A stretch of DNA of 64,000 nucleotides, from NCBI RefSeq assembly GCF_012395815.1, contig NZ_JAAZQQ010000002.1:372001-436000 (forward strand). Reading direction: 5' to 3'. This document shows, in pieces, positions 14,813-57,930 of the stretch. Below the pieces are notes generated by a model. The model saw only the letters and a program-made list of their open reading frames with translations. It did no database searches and had not been told where the DNA came from. Source of the stretch: Roseicyclus persicicus. Lineage in GTDB: Bacteria > Pseudomonadota > Alphaproteobacteria > Rhodobacterales > Rhodobacteraceae. The first letter of the stretch is position 1. Each line of letters opens with the position of its first letter. Made by a program: the position numbers and the translations under genes.

Positions 14813-15592
14813 ATGGATCTGGGGATTGCCGGGAAGCGGGCGCTGGTCTGCGCCTCGTCCAAGGGGCTGGGCCGCGGCTGTGCCGAGGCGTTGGCCGAGG
14901 CCGGGGTTGACCTGGTTCTGAACGCGCGCGGCGCCGCGGCGCTGGAGGCGACCGCGCAGGACATCCGCGACCGCTACGGCGTCAAGGTGACCGCGGTGGC
15001 CGCCGACATCACCGACGCGGCCGAGCGCGCCCGGGTGCTCGAGGCCGCGGGCGACGTCGACATCCTGGTCACCAACGCCGGCGGCCCGCCGCCCGGCCTG
15101 TGGTCGGACTGGACGCGCGATGACTTCATCAAGGCGCTGGACGCCAACATGCTGACGCCGATCGCGCTGATGACGGCGCTGATGCCGAAGATGATCGACA
15201 AGGGCTGGGGCCGGGTGGTCAACATCACCTCGCAGTCGGTGAAGGCGCCGATCCCGCAGCTGGGCCTGTCGAACGCGGCGCGCACGGGCCTGACCGGCTA
15301 TGTCGCGGGCACCGCGCGGCAGGTCGCGGCCCACGGGGTGATCGTGAACAACATGCTGCCGGGCATCCACGCCACCGACCGCGCCGATGCGCTGGACGGC
15401 AACGTGGCGCGGCAGCAGAACATCTCGGTCGAGGAGGCGAAGGCCCGGCGCGAGCAGACCATCCCGGCCCGGCGCTACGGCACGGCCGAGGAGTTCGGCA
15501 AGATGTGCGCGTTCCTGTGCTCGCAGCACGCGGGCTTCATCGTGGCGCAGAACATCCTGGTGGATGGCGGCGGGACGAACGCGACGATCTGA
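14813..15592 (+). CDS. SDR-family oxidoreductase lacking the usual YxxxK
   Basis: A 259-residue short-chain dehydrogenase/reductase of the 3-oxoacyl-ACP-reductase-like group. The nucleotide loop is CASSKGLGRG (residues about 14-23), and the NAG motif (TNAGGPP) and the NITSQS strand are intact. Where the family has Tyr-x-x-x-Lys the sequence reads GLSNAARTGL, with no Tyr or Lys. This places it in a subgroup usually named by similarity only. A good Shine-Dalgarno (GGGGAG) precedes the ATG. The gene is followed by the phased palindrome array. Substrate unknown. Confidence 0.88.
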   Translation: MDLGIAGKRALVCASSKGLGRGCAEALAEAGVDLVLNARGAAALEATAQDIRDRYGVKVTAVAADITDAAERARVLEAAGDVDILVTNAGGPPPGLWSDWTRDDFIKALDANMLTPIALMTALMPKMIDKGWGRVVNITSQSVKAPIPQLGLSNAARTGLTGYVAGTARQVAAHGVIVNNMLPGIHATDRADALDGNVARQQNISVEEAKARREQTIPARRYGTAEEFGKMCAFLCSQHAGFIVAQNILVDGGGTNATI

Positions 15593-15604
15593 CCGCCCGG
15601 CGCG

Positions 15605-15691
15605 GCAGACCCTTGCAAGGGTCTGCCCAAAGCCTTGCAAGGCTTTGGCAACGCCCTTGCAAGGGCGTGGTCAGATCCTTGCAAGGATCTG
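15605..15691. repeat. array of four 22-bp-phased CCTTGCAAGG-core palindromes
   Basis: Four palindromes with the identical core CCTTGCAAGG follow each other directly, with centres at 15615.5, 15637.5, 15659.5 and 15681.5, i.e. exactly 22 bp apart. Spans are 15605-15626 (22 bp, perfect), 15627-15648 (22 bp, perfect), 15651-15668 (18 bp) and 15672-15691 (20 bp). The arms outside the core differ from unit to unit but stay self-complementary within each unit. The array starts 13 bp after the SDR stop and ends about 50 bp before the ABC ATPase gene. Confidence 0.95.
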
Positions 15692-15742: not shown

Positions 15743-16825
<1,083 letters not shown>

Positions 16826-29249: not shown

Positions 29250-29942
29250 ATGAAATACACCTGGCTGGGACACGCCGGCGTTCGACTGGAGATCGCCGAT
29301 CAGGTCCTGCTGATCGACCCCTGGGAGCCGGGAAACCCGATGTTTCCCGCCGACCGCCGCGCCGCGGTGTTCGAGGGCGTCACCGCGATCTTCATCACCC
29401 ACGGGCATGACGACCACACCGGCGGCGTGGCCGAGCTGGCGCGGTCGCTGGACGTGCCGGTCTACGGCATGGTCGAGCTGATGGGCCGCTGGGGCGCGGC
29501 GCACGGGCTGAAGGCCAACGGCTTCAACAAGGGCGGCACGGTGCGGCTGGGCGAGGTCGCGGTGACGATGGTGAACGCCACCCATTCCTCGTCGATGTCG
29601 GGGCCGGACGGCCCGGTCTTCGTCGGCACCGAGGCGGGCTACATCATCGAGGGTGCCGGCCGCGGCGTCTACGTGTCCGGGGACACCGACGTGATGGCCG
29701 ACATGAAGGTCTGGGCCGACATCCACGCCCCCGACGTGGGCATCCTGTGCGCCGGCGGGCACTACACCATGGACATGAAGCGGGCGGCCTACGCGGCGTC
29801 GAAGCTGTTCAGCTTCAAGACGGTGATTCCCTATCACTACCGGACCTTCCCGCTGCTGGAGCAGTCGGCGGCCGCGCTGAAGGCGGCACTGCCGGGGGTG
29901 CGGGTGCTCGACCCCGACCCGGGGGTGACTGTGGAGCTGTGA
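29250..29942 (+). CDS. UPF0173 metal-dependent hydrolase (MBL fold)
   Basis: A 230-residue metallo-beta-lactamase-fold protein of the UPF0173 group. Motifs are MKYTWLGHAGVRLE at the start, HGHDDHTGG (zinc site, about residues 51-59), SGDTDVMADM and VIPYHYRTFP. The strong GGAGGG ribosome site lies nine bases before the ATG. The natural substrate of the family is unknown. The stop is followed by three phased CTTGCAAG palindromes. Confidence 0.92.
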   Translation: MKYTWLGHAGVRLEIADQVLLIDPWEPGNPMFPADRRAAVFEGVTAIFITHGHDDHTGGVAELARSLDVPVYGMVELMGRWGAAHGLKANGFNKGGTVRLGEVAVTMVNATHSSSMSGPDGPVFVGTEAGYIIEGAGRGVYVSGDTDVMADMKVWADIHAPDVGILCAGGHYTMDMKRAAYAASKLFSFKTVIPYHYRTFPLLEQSAAALKAALPGVRVLDPDPGVTVEL

Positions 29943-29945
29943 GCC

Positions 29946-30015
29946 GCCAGTCTCTTGCAAGAGACTGGCAAGGCCCTTGCAAGGGCCTTGGCAAGATCCT
30001 TGCAAGGATCTTGCC
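29946..30015. repeat. array of three phased CTTGCAAG-core palindromes
   Basis: Three palindromes with core CTTGCAAG: 29946-29969 (24 bp, perfect), 29969-29990 (22 bp, perfect) and 29990-30015 (26 bp, perfect). Their centres are at 29957.5, 29979.5 and 30002.5, i.e. 22 and 23 bp apart. Arms vary between units but remain complementary within each. The array lies three bases behind the UPF0173 stop and ten bases before the end of the convergent GNAT gene. It is the same element type as at 15605-15691. Confidence 0.95.
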
Positions 30016-30025
30016 CGCGCGCCGG

Positions 30026-30532
30026 TCAGAGCAGGCGCTCCATCTCCACCGCCGGGAAGGTGATGCCGGGGGCGAGGCGCACGGCGATCTCGCCCCGGGT
30101 GCGGAACCCCATGGCGGTGTAGAGGGGCACCGCCGTCAGGGTCGACTGGCACACCATCCGCTCCACCCCCGCGGCCAGCGCCTCGGCCAGCACGCGGGTC
30201 AGGATCGCCTGCGCCAGCCCCTTGCGCAGGTGCGCGGGGTGCGTCGCCACGTGGCGGACGTGCCCGATCTCGGGCCGGCCCGCGCCGCCCTGCGGCGCCC
30301 CGCGCGACCAGCCGCCCGCCGCCAGCGCCCGGCCATCGCCGTCCTCGGCCATGTAGTAGCTGCCCGAGCGCAGGAGCGCCGGGTTCGCGCGGGAGATGAT
30401 GGGCAGCGCCGTGACCAGCACCGAGGGCGCGTAGTCGCGCTTCAGGATCGACGGGTAGCTCGCCGCAAGCAGGGCGTCGACGGCGGCAAGGTCATGGGCG
30501 TGGGTCGGTCTGATCGTGATCTCGTCGGCCAT
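30026..30532 (-). CDS. GNAT-family N-acetyltransferase
   Basis: A 168-residue acetyltransferase. The acetyl-CoA loop region reads THPAHLRKGLAQAILTRVLA (about residues 94-113), preceded by the EIGHVRHVAT strand and followed by CQSTLTAVPLYTAMGF. Substrate not readable. A good AGGAGG site precedes the ATG. Its 3' end faces the palindrome array behind the UPF0173 gene. Confidence 0.9.
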   Translation of the reverse strand: MADEITIRPTHAHDLAAVDALLAASYPSILKRDYAPSVLVTALPIISRANPALLRSGSYYMAEDGDGRALAAGGWSRGAPQGGAGRPEIGHVRHVATHPAHLRKGLAQAILTRVLAEALAAGVERMVCQSTLTAVPLYTAMGFRTRGEIAVRLAPGITFPAVEMERLL

Positions 30533-43717: not shown

Positions 43718-43770
43718 GCAGGGTTTTCGTACGAAAACCCTGCGGGTGCGAAAATTCGTACGATTTTTCG
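43718..43770. repeat. pair of CGTACG-core palindromes
   Basis: A perfect 26-bp palindrome at 43718-43743 is centred on TTTTCGTACGAAAA. A second one at 43749-43770 (22 bp, one mismatched pair) shares the CGTACG core. Centres are 29 bp apart. They fill the gap between the HAD gene stop and the ubiH start, both on the minus strand. No T-tract longer than five is adjacent. Confidence 0.9.
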
Positions 43771-56570: not shown

Positions 56571-57878
56571 ATGTTTGCACGGTTCCTGACCTCGGCCAGC
56601 CTCGTGGCCGCCCTGGCCCTGACCCCCGCCGAGCGCGCCGAGGCCGACGCCGCCGAATTCCTCGGCGGTGCCCTGATCGGGGGCGTCATCGGCCACGCGC
56701 TGGCGACCCAGGGCAACCGCAACAACGGCGCCGGCACCACCACCCGCGTGGTGCGCCCCGGCATCCCCGCCACCCAGCAGGGCCGCGAGACGCAGCTGGC
56801 GCTGAACTACTTCGGCTTCAACGCCGGAGCGGTGGACGGCCAGATCGGCAACGGCACCCGCGCCGCGATCGAGCGTTACCAGCGTGCGATGGGCTATCCG
56901 GTGGATGGGCGCGAGTTCTCGTCCTACCAGTTCGACTACCTGATGGACGCCTACTACTGGGCGCAGAACGGCGGCTCGGCGCAGACCGGGCTGGCGGGCC
57001 AGCCGCTCCTGTTCGCCTACCGCGACAGCCGCGAGGGCCGGATGCTGCCCGCCGCCGCGCCGCAGCCGGTCGCCCCGCAGCCGCCCGCGACGACGGTCAT
57101 CGTGAACCCGCAGCCGGGCCTGCCCGCGCCCACGGTCTCGGCCTCGGCGACGCCGGCGGTGCCGAATCTCTTTGCCAACGCCGCGCCCACCGTGTCGCTG
57201 GCCAACACCTGCAACGGGGTCATGCTGCAGACCTCGACCAATGGCGGCTACGTGACGCTCGCCACCATGACCGACCCCGACTTCGCCCTGTCCGAGCAGT
57301 TCTGCGTCGCCCGCACCTACGCCATGGCCCGCGGCGAGGAGCTGATGCGCGGCATCGTCGGCCTGACGCCGCAGCAGATCAGCGCCCAGTGCACCCAGTT
57401 CGCCGACATGCTGTCGGCGCAGGTCGAGCTCGCCTCGGTCTCGGGGCAGGGCGAGGTGGTGCCGCAGGTCGCGGGCATCGCCACTTCGGCGGGCGTGCCG
57501 CTGGCCGACCTCGCCGCCACGGCCCGGGTCTGCCTGTCGGTCGGCTACGCGCAGGACAACATGCGCATGGCCGTCGCCTCGACCCTGATGCTTGTCACGC
57601 TGGGCGAGCCGGCCTACGGCGAGCTGATGGGCCACCACCTGCGCGAGGGCTTCGGCACCGCCGAGCGCCCCGACCTGGCGATGGCCTGGTACAACGCCGC
57701 GCTGACCTCGCTGGAGCAGGGCGCGCAGCCCGCCTTCATGCCCGGCCAGCCCGAGCGCACCATGCTGCTGCGGCAGGCCACGATGCGGATGCAGTCCCAG
57801 CCGGTCGCGGTGCCGGTGCCGGCGGCGCAGCCCGTCCCGGCGCAGCCGGCGCTGCCGACCTTCCGCGTCAACCAGTAA
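56571..57878 (+). CDS. peptidoglycan-binding-domain protein
   Basis: A 435-residue secreted protein. A signal peptide (residues about 1-26) is followed by EFLGGALIGGVIGHALATQG, a Gly-rich segment, and a PG_binding_1 domain (about residues 66-105: TQLALNYFGFNAGAVDGQIG, NGTRAAIERYQ). A Pro/Ala-rich linker leads to an uncharacterised C-terminal region with four Cys. It should bind the cell wall in the periplasm. GGAGGG precedes the ATG; a terminator follows. Confidence 0.87.
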   Translation: MFARFLTSASLVAALALTPAERAEADAAEFLGGALIGGVIGHALATQGNRNNGAGTTTRVVRPGIPATQQGRETQLALNYFGFNAGAVDGQIGNGTRAAIERYQRAMGYPVDGREFSSYQFDYLMDAYYWAQNGGSAQTGLAGQPLLFAYRDSREGRMLPAAAPQPVAPQPPATTVIVNPQPGLPAPTVSASATPAVPNLFANAAPTVSLANTCNGVMLQTSTNGGYVTLATMTDPDFALSEQFCVARTYAMARGEELMRGIVGLTPQQISAQCTQFADMLSAQVELASVSGQGEVVPQVAGIATSAGVPLADLAATARVCLSVGYAQDNMRMAVASTLMLVTLGEPAYGELMGHHLREGFGTAERPDLAMAWYNAALTSLEQGAQPAFMPGQPERTMLLRQATMRMQSQPVAVPVPAAQPVPAQPALPTFRVNQ

Positions 57879-57902
57879 CGCCGGCCCCCCGGCCGGCGCC
57901 CA

Positions 57903-57930
57903 CGGGCCCCCCGCGCGGGGGCCCGTTTCC
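57903..57930 (+). terminator. Rho-independent terminator after the peptidoglycan-binding gene
   Basis: A 9-bp perfect stem (57903-57911 with 57917-57925) is followed by TTTCCGTT. The T-tract is short. Confidence 0.7.

Follow-up and report, generated by a model that had tools for sequence, protein, structure and literature searches.

Tandem TTGCAA-centred palindromes at gene ends in the genus Roseicyclus, possibly acting as trains of RNA hairpins

Four palindromes with a common core lie side by side just past the end of a short-chain dehydrogenase (SDR) gene in a 64,000-nucleotide stretch of the Roseicyclus persicicus genome (the window), and raise the question of what such a train of palindromes does at the end of a gene. 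The original prediction, made from the letters of the window, described four palindromes with centres 22, 22 and 22 bp apart, and this description was confirmed, the cores of array 1 lying at 15612, 15634, 15656 and 15678 with a pitch of exactly 22 bp. The window holds two TTGCAA-centred arrays, one of four units and one of three (Table 1). The sequence CTTGCAAG occurs seven times in the window against 0.53 expected, a count reached in none of 100 shuffles, and the three copies beyond array 1 form array 2 (29946-30015), with spacings of 22 and 23 bp. Seven of the ten perfect palindromes of at least 16 bp in the window are array units. Markov sequences contained a mean of 5.8 palindromes of this length (maximum of 10 over 20 runs), so the number of palindromes is unremarkable, and it is the common centre and the clustering that stand out. 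An Rfam search of the window at gathering score returned RNase P and one tRNA only, the arrays matching no family, and no terminator-like site was found at array 1.

Table 1 Position and context of the arrays, neighbouring genes and related elements in the window, and loci of the canonical block in the same genome
Feature	Position	Strand	Sequence or basis of assignment	Context
SDR gene (short-chain dehydrogenase)	14813..15592	+	ORF; Pfam PF13561/PF00106	Upstream of array 1; TGA stop at 15590-15592
Array 1, unit 1	15604..15627		Perfect palindrome, 24 bp; GGCAGACC-CTTGCAAG-GGTCTGCC	11 nt past stop
Array 1, unit 2	15627..15648		Perfect palindrome, 22 bp; CCAAAGC-CTTGCAAG-GCTTTGG	
Array 1, unit 3	15651..15668		Perfect palindrome, 18 bp; ACGCC-CTTGCAAG-GGCGT	
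Array 1, unit 4	15672..15691		Perfect palindrome, 20 bp; CAGATC-CTTGCAAG-GATCTG	Ends 51 nt before next start codon
ABC transporter ATP-binding protein (presumed product)	15743..16825	+	ORF translation, with Walker A and signature motifs	Co-directional, downstream of array 1
Metallo-beta-lactamase-fold hydrolase	29250..29942	+	Pfam	Upstream of array 2
Array 2	29946-29969, 29969-29990, 29990-30015		Three perfect palindromes	Fills convergent gap; stops 3 nt and 10 nt away
GNAT acetyltransferase	30026..30532	-	Pfam	Convergent, beyond array 2
CGTACG element	43718..43770	-	Palindromes at about 43770-43749 (one mismatch) and 43743-43718 (perfect), pitch 29	Directly after minus-strand stop
Canonical block loci in own genome (G000)	L034, L037, L039, L042, L043			

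In the window's own genome (G000; 3.71 Mb, 10 contigs), CTTGCAAG occurs 117 times and its reversed control nine times; pairs at a pitch of 20-26 bp number 70 and triples 36, with none of either for the reversed control. The genome-wide clustering at 22-23 bp that the original prediction had proposed to look for is therefore present, and phasing and arm co-variation were both found beyond the window. Five of 13 genomes of the genus have CTTGCAAG pairs, holding 70, 37, 37, 37 and 2. Across the family Rhodobacteraceae, surveyed with one genome per genus (n = 295, 260 of them with a completeness of 90 % or more and a contamination of 5 % or less), G000 was the one genome with triples, and none were found in the 294 other sampled genera. 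Arrays were collected from stretches of G000 (25) and of three relatives in the genus Roseicyclus, G295 (21), G300 (19) and G303 (20), an array being two or more units with at least five paired bases beyond TTGCAA, a rule under which L187 and L233 yielded none. This produced 86 arrays with 318 units in four species: at least 26 arrays with 97 units in G000, where pair-only clusters were drawn from the first 50 of the 70 pairs, and 20 arrays in each of G295, G300 and G303; the counts leave out G303 contigs C474 and C476, which carry pairs, and two pairs in G306. Since only 20 to 26 arrays were found per genome, they are not a general terminator.

Many CTTGCAAG clusters, also at 22 bp, occur in a Bacteroidaceae MAG (Horse_feces99; JAKSLM contigs, e.g. 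L060, L064 and L070), where 68 of 69 spacings are exactly 22 bp in 29 clusters of 28 loci and the arms rarely match. At least five paired bases beyond CTTGCAAG are present in 10 of 98 of these units against 308 of 318 in Roseicyclus; identity with the Roseicyclus element was rejected on these figures and the repeat is, to judge from its arms, unrelated.

Counted ahead of the search for extra units, four units were present in 55 arrays, three in 24, two in five and five in two. The units are spaced at 22 bp (136 cases), 23 bp (67) or 21 bp (8), the others falling within 20-26 bp, and there are six double gaps of 41-46 bp. Between orthologous arrays, a difference of 1-3 bp was found in 25 of 167 spacings and one of 22 bp in a single case. 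Neighbouring palindromes are butt-joined, with a gap of -3 to +3 nt in 215 of 228 cases, so that the pitch is the length of the hairpin. It had been suggested that two helical turns per unit would place all cores on one face of the DNA as a platform for a protein. This did not hold with spacings of 20-26 bp, and helical phasing was rejected: in the 61 arrays of at least four units the cores leave one face, the largest rotation relative to the first core being 69-171 degrees (median 137, taking 10.5 bp/turn).

The arms were likewise found to be less free than had been thought, for they do not differ completely between units and instead follow a common consensus close to GCCAGNNNCTTGCAAGNNNCTGGC, with most of the variation at pairs 2-4; some units are TTTTGCAAAA or ATTTGCAAAT. 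The pair next to the core is mostly C-G, with some T-A and rarely G-C, and pairs further out vary with preferences. Constancy of the core between orthologues is circular because the units were found by TTGCAA, and a fairer measure is how often a unit position with palindromic arms has a different hexamer, which is five times (three TTTCAA, one CTGCAG and one CCTGCG) against 318 for TTGCAA. CCTGCG belongs to a GC-rich hairpin inserted into L210, an array of G300; in L210 and L227 (G300 and G303) an ordinary GC-rich hairpin of the GGGCCGC...GCGGCCC type replaces one unit inside a TTGCAA array. At L194 and L199 the units overlap, with three TTGCAA centres 11 bp apart, which gives competing alternative hairpins. 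CRISPR and tandem duplication were rejected as origins, since what the units have in common is a short centre and a loose consensus, and spacers are absent; a coding origin was rejected because the arrays are intergenic.

At pairs 1-6, 1898 of 1908 cells in the 318 units are Watson-Crick, a figure to be read with the fact that 312 of the units entered through the requirement for at least five paired bases beyond TTGCAA, the other six being correctly placed TTGCAA sites that fail it. In register, 94 % of pairs 3-8 in the 97 G000 units are paired; sliding by 1-3 lowers this to 18-28 % and column shuffling to 50 %. In 73 units of orthologous arrays, a comparison that leaves out the five-array L047 group and arrays of minority unit number, 41 pair columns hold at least two Watson-Crick pairs, eight hold a broken pair and 390 are invariant, and the view that the palindromic form is under selection is upheld by the 41 alternative Watson-Crick columns against eight broken ones. 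Pair 4 of unit 2 in array 1 is A-T in G000 and G-C in G300 and G303. Between G295 and G300, two of 312 stem pairs have changed on both sides and five on one side, and four-fold sites differ at 2531 of 9437 (27 %); between G000 and the other three genomes double changes reach 14-16 % and four-fold divergence 32-36 % (these stem comparisons, and those of orthologous spacings, leave out the L047 group and array pairs of unequal unit number). So few stem changes against the four-fold divergence are what slow compensatory evolution under selection for pairing would give. A copying mechanism had been put forward beside selection, and a fast copying of the arms fits poorly with two double changes in 312 stem pairs.

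Replication that corrects palindromes by template switching within hairpins would match the arms without selection on the palindrome. That only 10 of 1908 cells at pairs 1-6 are broken would be expected of it, as would the 15 of 41 pair switches that are of transversion type and have no G-U intermediate. Under such a process, however, the stems would drift at the neutral rate, which the observed stems do not, and the centre stays TTGCAA although a symmetric change to CTGCAG is possible and was seen once. The array at the SDR gene end in G295 (L245) is also contrary to it, being contracted and retaining a chimeric unit, made of the left arm of unit 1 and the right arm of unit 3 fused across the core, whose arms do not match; it reads as a snapshot of core-to-core recombination. 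Template switching is very improbable as the explanation of the arrays.

With respect to the flanking genes, 49 of the 86 arrays are convergent, 20 are in ++ and 16 in -- orientation, one is undetermined and none is divergent; 12 of 40 intergenic gaps of at least 25 bp in the window are divergent. The 135 stop-side gaps, measured to a nominal 9-bp arm, have a median of 6 nt and 110 of them are 15 nt or less, the gene calls being those of a custom codon-score script whose negative or very long gaps (up to 1270 nt) are probably script errors. Both stops lie within 12 nt in 12 of 15 convergent G000 arrays. Position relative to stops was among the checks proposed in advance, and the arrays indeed begin a median of 6 nt past stop codons. 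TTTT within 12 nt was found in one of 135 sense flanks, a U-tract being otherwise absent, and a canonical Rho-independent terminator of GC hairpin and U-tract was rejected on this count; the window does contain terminators with a hairpin and a U-run elsewhere. The distance to the stop agrees with that of U-less cluster terminators, in which hairpins lie within about 20 nt of the stop (110 of 135 gaps here at 15 nt or less). At 57878-57926 the window has two tandem GC-rich hairpins with asymmetric loops and a short T-run, ordinary and terminator-like, upstream of a tRNA-Leu gene.

Many arrays are orthologous among the four genomes, with the order of units kept. A canonical block (arms GACCC-CGCCC-GAGCC-GTTTC) is found at five G000 loci, complete or in part and facing either way relative to the upstream gene, which shows that blocks were dispersed. 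G000 has an empty site at L042:760-808 where G295, G300 and G303 have arrays, and at the L048 locus the TTGCAA array is present only in G000 of nine genomes, some of which have other gene neighbours. These findings allow the arrays to be regarded as a selfish or neutral repeat of the REP kind, in which blocks of about 90 bp are spread by some enzyme and survive past stops, where they are least harmful, the palindromes being kept because the hairpin form is needed for movement. The canonical block in both orientations and the presence or absence of arrays at L042 and L048 are what such spreading would leave, and the arrays share with REP elements a large number of short palindromic copies that lie outside genes and downstream of them (97 units in at least 26 arrays of G000; none of 86 arrays divergent). 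Against it, the Y1 transposase profile PF01797 was found in none of 13 genomes of the genus (5 of 14 control genomes being positive), and mobilisation by RAYT was rejected. REP tags reading into the array were few among 172 flanks of 12 nt, at 8 for GTAG and 1 for CGTC (0 and 12 in the opposite orientation), and the conservation of stems (2 of 312 double changes with 2531 of 9437 four-fold sites differing between G295 and G300) is unlike neutral decay. A mobile repeat of this kind is an unlikely origin for the arrays.

Within arrays, units with identical arms are rare. In G000 and the other three genomes there are 1, 0, 0 and 0 identical pairs where 6.4, 4.1, 4.1 and 3.0 are expected (P = 0.007, 0.011, 0.009 and 0.037). 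When arrays sharing neighbours were removed, the identical-pair test was not significant (P 0.09-0.14), and a distance test held in three of four genomes (P 0.12, 0.004, 0.010 and 0.010). The distinctness of arms seems to reflect in part the descent of arrays from a common block, with a weaker tendency that persists when neighbour-sharing arrays are left aside. Folding ensembles of the 26 G000 arrays gave a mean probability of 0.84 for pairing of a unit with itself, against 0.63 (sd 0.05, maximum 0.74 of 40) for controls with units swapped among arrays and 0.11 with all units alike. Self-folding was predicted for 87 of 97 G000 units, the ten with values below 0.5 lying two each in L032, L036, L044, L046 and L049. 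L044 is array 1, so that the array from which the study started is an exception, since its units 1 and 4, whose arms are similar (GACC/GATC), are predicted to form pairs between them that enclose units 2 and 3.

The reading tentatively preferred here, to which we give a little less than an even chance, is that the arrays are orientation-neutral trains of RNA hairpins at mRNA 3' ends that serve termination or 3'-end protection. The sequences show that an array is usually three or four (two to five) butt-joined palindromes that begin a few nt past stops, most often in convergent gaps; the stems stay paired through matched double changes, TTGCAA is rarely replaced, and the arms in one array tend to differ. 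Each unit would fold on itself in the transcript as a hairpin of about 8-10 bp with a loop of UGCA or UUGCAA. Without a U-tract, the train would halt RNA polymerase; it might instead, or in addition, act once Rho has terminated transcription, blocking 3'-to-5' exonucleases and antisense read-through. Distinct arms would prevent neighbours from mispairing and recombining. Because the units read alike on both strands, one array could serve both convergent transcripts, in either orientation, and several hairpins may be needed because the first sits within the footprint of the terminating ribosome. Four consecutive RNA hairpins had been named as the alternative to a protein platform; as a tentative reading, hairpins fit the arrays better than a platform does. 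An E. coli terminator 5 bp past a stop was repressed by the ribosome in one study (PMC4824070), from which a use for a train of several hairpins may be inferred; such repression, as described there, also counts against reading the arrays as RNA terminators. Secondary structures are discussed as barriers to PNPase in R. sphaeroides (PMC7866481).

Relatives bear on this reading with elements of other cores. At the hydrolase end, G299 and G306 carry two CCCGGG palindromes past the stop and G302 carries one with a degenerate CCCAGG; in G296 the L048 end carries a pair of CTGCAG palindromes at a spacing of 23 bp. Pairs of AAACCCGGGTTT were found in 4 of 13 genomes of the genus, at 12 places and every one at 23 bp, and pairs of TTCGTACGAA in 6 of 295 genera of the family, with a pitch of 26 in six loci checked in G132; no divergent placement was called among 27 checked AAACCCGGGTTT and TTCGTACGAA loci. 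G132, which belongs to another genus, holds 32 of these TTCGTACGAA pairs in tandem; their outer arms differ, and by the gene calls they lie close to the ends of genes (e.g. L272, L278 and L280). A further TTCGTACGAA pair lies in G000 itself (G000:C1:362939-362977). By eye, a few AAACCCGGGTTT loci bear an extra unit with a different symmetric core, e.g. CTCGAG or CGATCG. Analogous elements with CCCGGG, CTGCAG and CGTACG in related lineages suggest that the form is kept more than the sequence. At some gene ends the array is wholly absent. In the 60 nt past the SDR stop, a stem of at least nine pairs is present in 12 of 12 genomes, TTGCAA units are present in four only, and the eight genomes without them fold at z -0.5 to -2.2 against Markov sequences. 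Of the 12 genomes compared at the hydrolase end, four that lack TTGCAA units fold no better than chance (z -0.7 to +0.3) and G296 has -0.8, and at the L048 end (nine genomes) four have z of -0.0 to +0.8, with no notable fold. In most cases the hairpins of relatives that lack arrays do not exceed what their base composition would give. A strong hairpin is thus common at these gene ends and not universal. In sister species the paired CCCGGG or CTGCAG units match, and their minimum-energy fold is a single long hairpin; distinct arms are therefore not a general feature, and separate self-folding has been seen so far only in TTGCAA arrays. These folds at the gene ends of relatives, with sister units that pair together, weaken the RNA-hairpin reading and slightly raise two of its rivals.

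An explanation at the level of DNA holds that trains of perfect palindromes with zero spacers extrude small cruciforms, or bind a protein that reads dyads, where supercoiling driven by transcription meets, as at gene ends and between convergent genes. In its favour, the dyad symmetry spans the centre, where the loop of an RNA cannot pair. Self-complementary 4-nt loops occur in 7 of 30 hairpins in the window, namely six array units and one CGTACG unit, yet the tandem pair at 57878-57926 is asymmetric; at sister loci without TTGCAA arrays, symmetric 4-nt loops occur in 6 of 6 tandem and 2 of 19 single hairpins, the central tetramers seen being TGCA, CCGG and GTAC. An RNA hairpin does not require a symmetric loop. 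Nor was there a preference for GT on the sense strand of co-directional arrays (7 GT and 9 AC in 1080 cells), and the control set of 50 U-run hairpins, which includes nested duplicates and allows at most one non-paired position each, gave 7 GT and 3 AC in 188 outer pairs, too few for comparison. Cores differ by lineage, and an array folds well as a DNA strand too (z -7.9). An action on DNA does not, however, account for arrays that are never divergent and that lie near stops instead of being spread over the gaps; helical phasing is absent, no partner protein is known, and a protein that reads sequence would not require variable arms to match. We consider an action at the DNA level improbable, if deserving of weight. 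Location, pairing and predicted self-folding favour RNA. Under the RNA-hairpin reading, strand symmetry may explain the loops, since two convergent transcripts would then meet an identical array; 36 arrays, however, are co-directional. The absent U-tract, the absent G-U preference and the symmetric loops are unexplained by an ordinary terminator.

A bolder proposal, speculative and quite unlikely as it stands, is that the self-complementary loops dock as kissing loops, within one 3' end or between convergent transcripts, to form a compact knob, and that lineages have swapped the loop word (TTGCAA, CCCGGG, CTGCAG or CGTACG), possibly along with the factor by which it is recognised; the arrays would then belong to a so far undescribed class of gene-end elements in Rhodobacteraceae, made of dyad-symmetric hairpins whose stems are kept unlike those of their neighbours and whose loops have a single self-complementary hexamer in common. 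The arrays offer a natural experiment on what bacterial gene ends need, in that symmetric tandem hairpins stay paired while the arms, and between lineages the core, change. If the RNA-hairpin reading is true, termination or protection in both directions without a U-tract would make the arrays compact bidirectional gene insulators for GC-rich bacteria, and if they act on DNA, they would point to control of topology between convergent genes. We know of no ready explanation for the self-complementary centre in the current picture of terminators or REP elements.

No description of such arrays was found in the open-access literature searched, and the nearest known systems share some of their features. 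REP and BIME elements are short, palindromic and extragenic, have many copies in convergent and co-directional gaps, often near stops, and are thought to act as RNA, and heterodimers with different stems are noted among them (PMC3733652). Unlike these, the Roseicyclus arrays have no GTAG or CGTC tag and no Y1 transposase in the genus, their palindromes are perfect through the centre, and they have mostly three or four units at a pitch of 22-23 bp with a fixed centre and co-varying variable arms. Clustered-hairpin terminators free of U-tracts also have several hairpins directly past the stop, and the authors of that study report no conserved sequence near stops or hairpins (PMC8355165), whereas the Roseicyclus arrays have a fixed self-complementary centre, a near-constant pitch, dispersed related copies and strand symmetry. 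In bidirectional terminators of B. cereus, some of which are common to convergent genes, stem pairs switch by double substitutions, with 68 GU against 8 AC intermediates (PMC5381666); G-U is tolerated and loops are variable there, in contrast to the near-fixed symmetric centre and lack of G-U preference in Roseicyclus. Inverted repeats of E. coli with cruciform potential are enriched directly past stops, the longer ones being mostly parts of intrinsic terminators, and tandem arrays or a shared core are not reported in the abstract of that work (PMC6060812). Beside these systems, what is new is a symmetric core specific to the lineage and, for TTGCAA arrays, arms that differ from one another.
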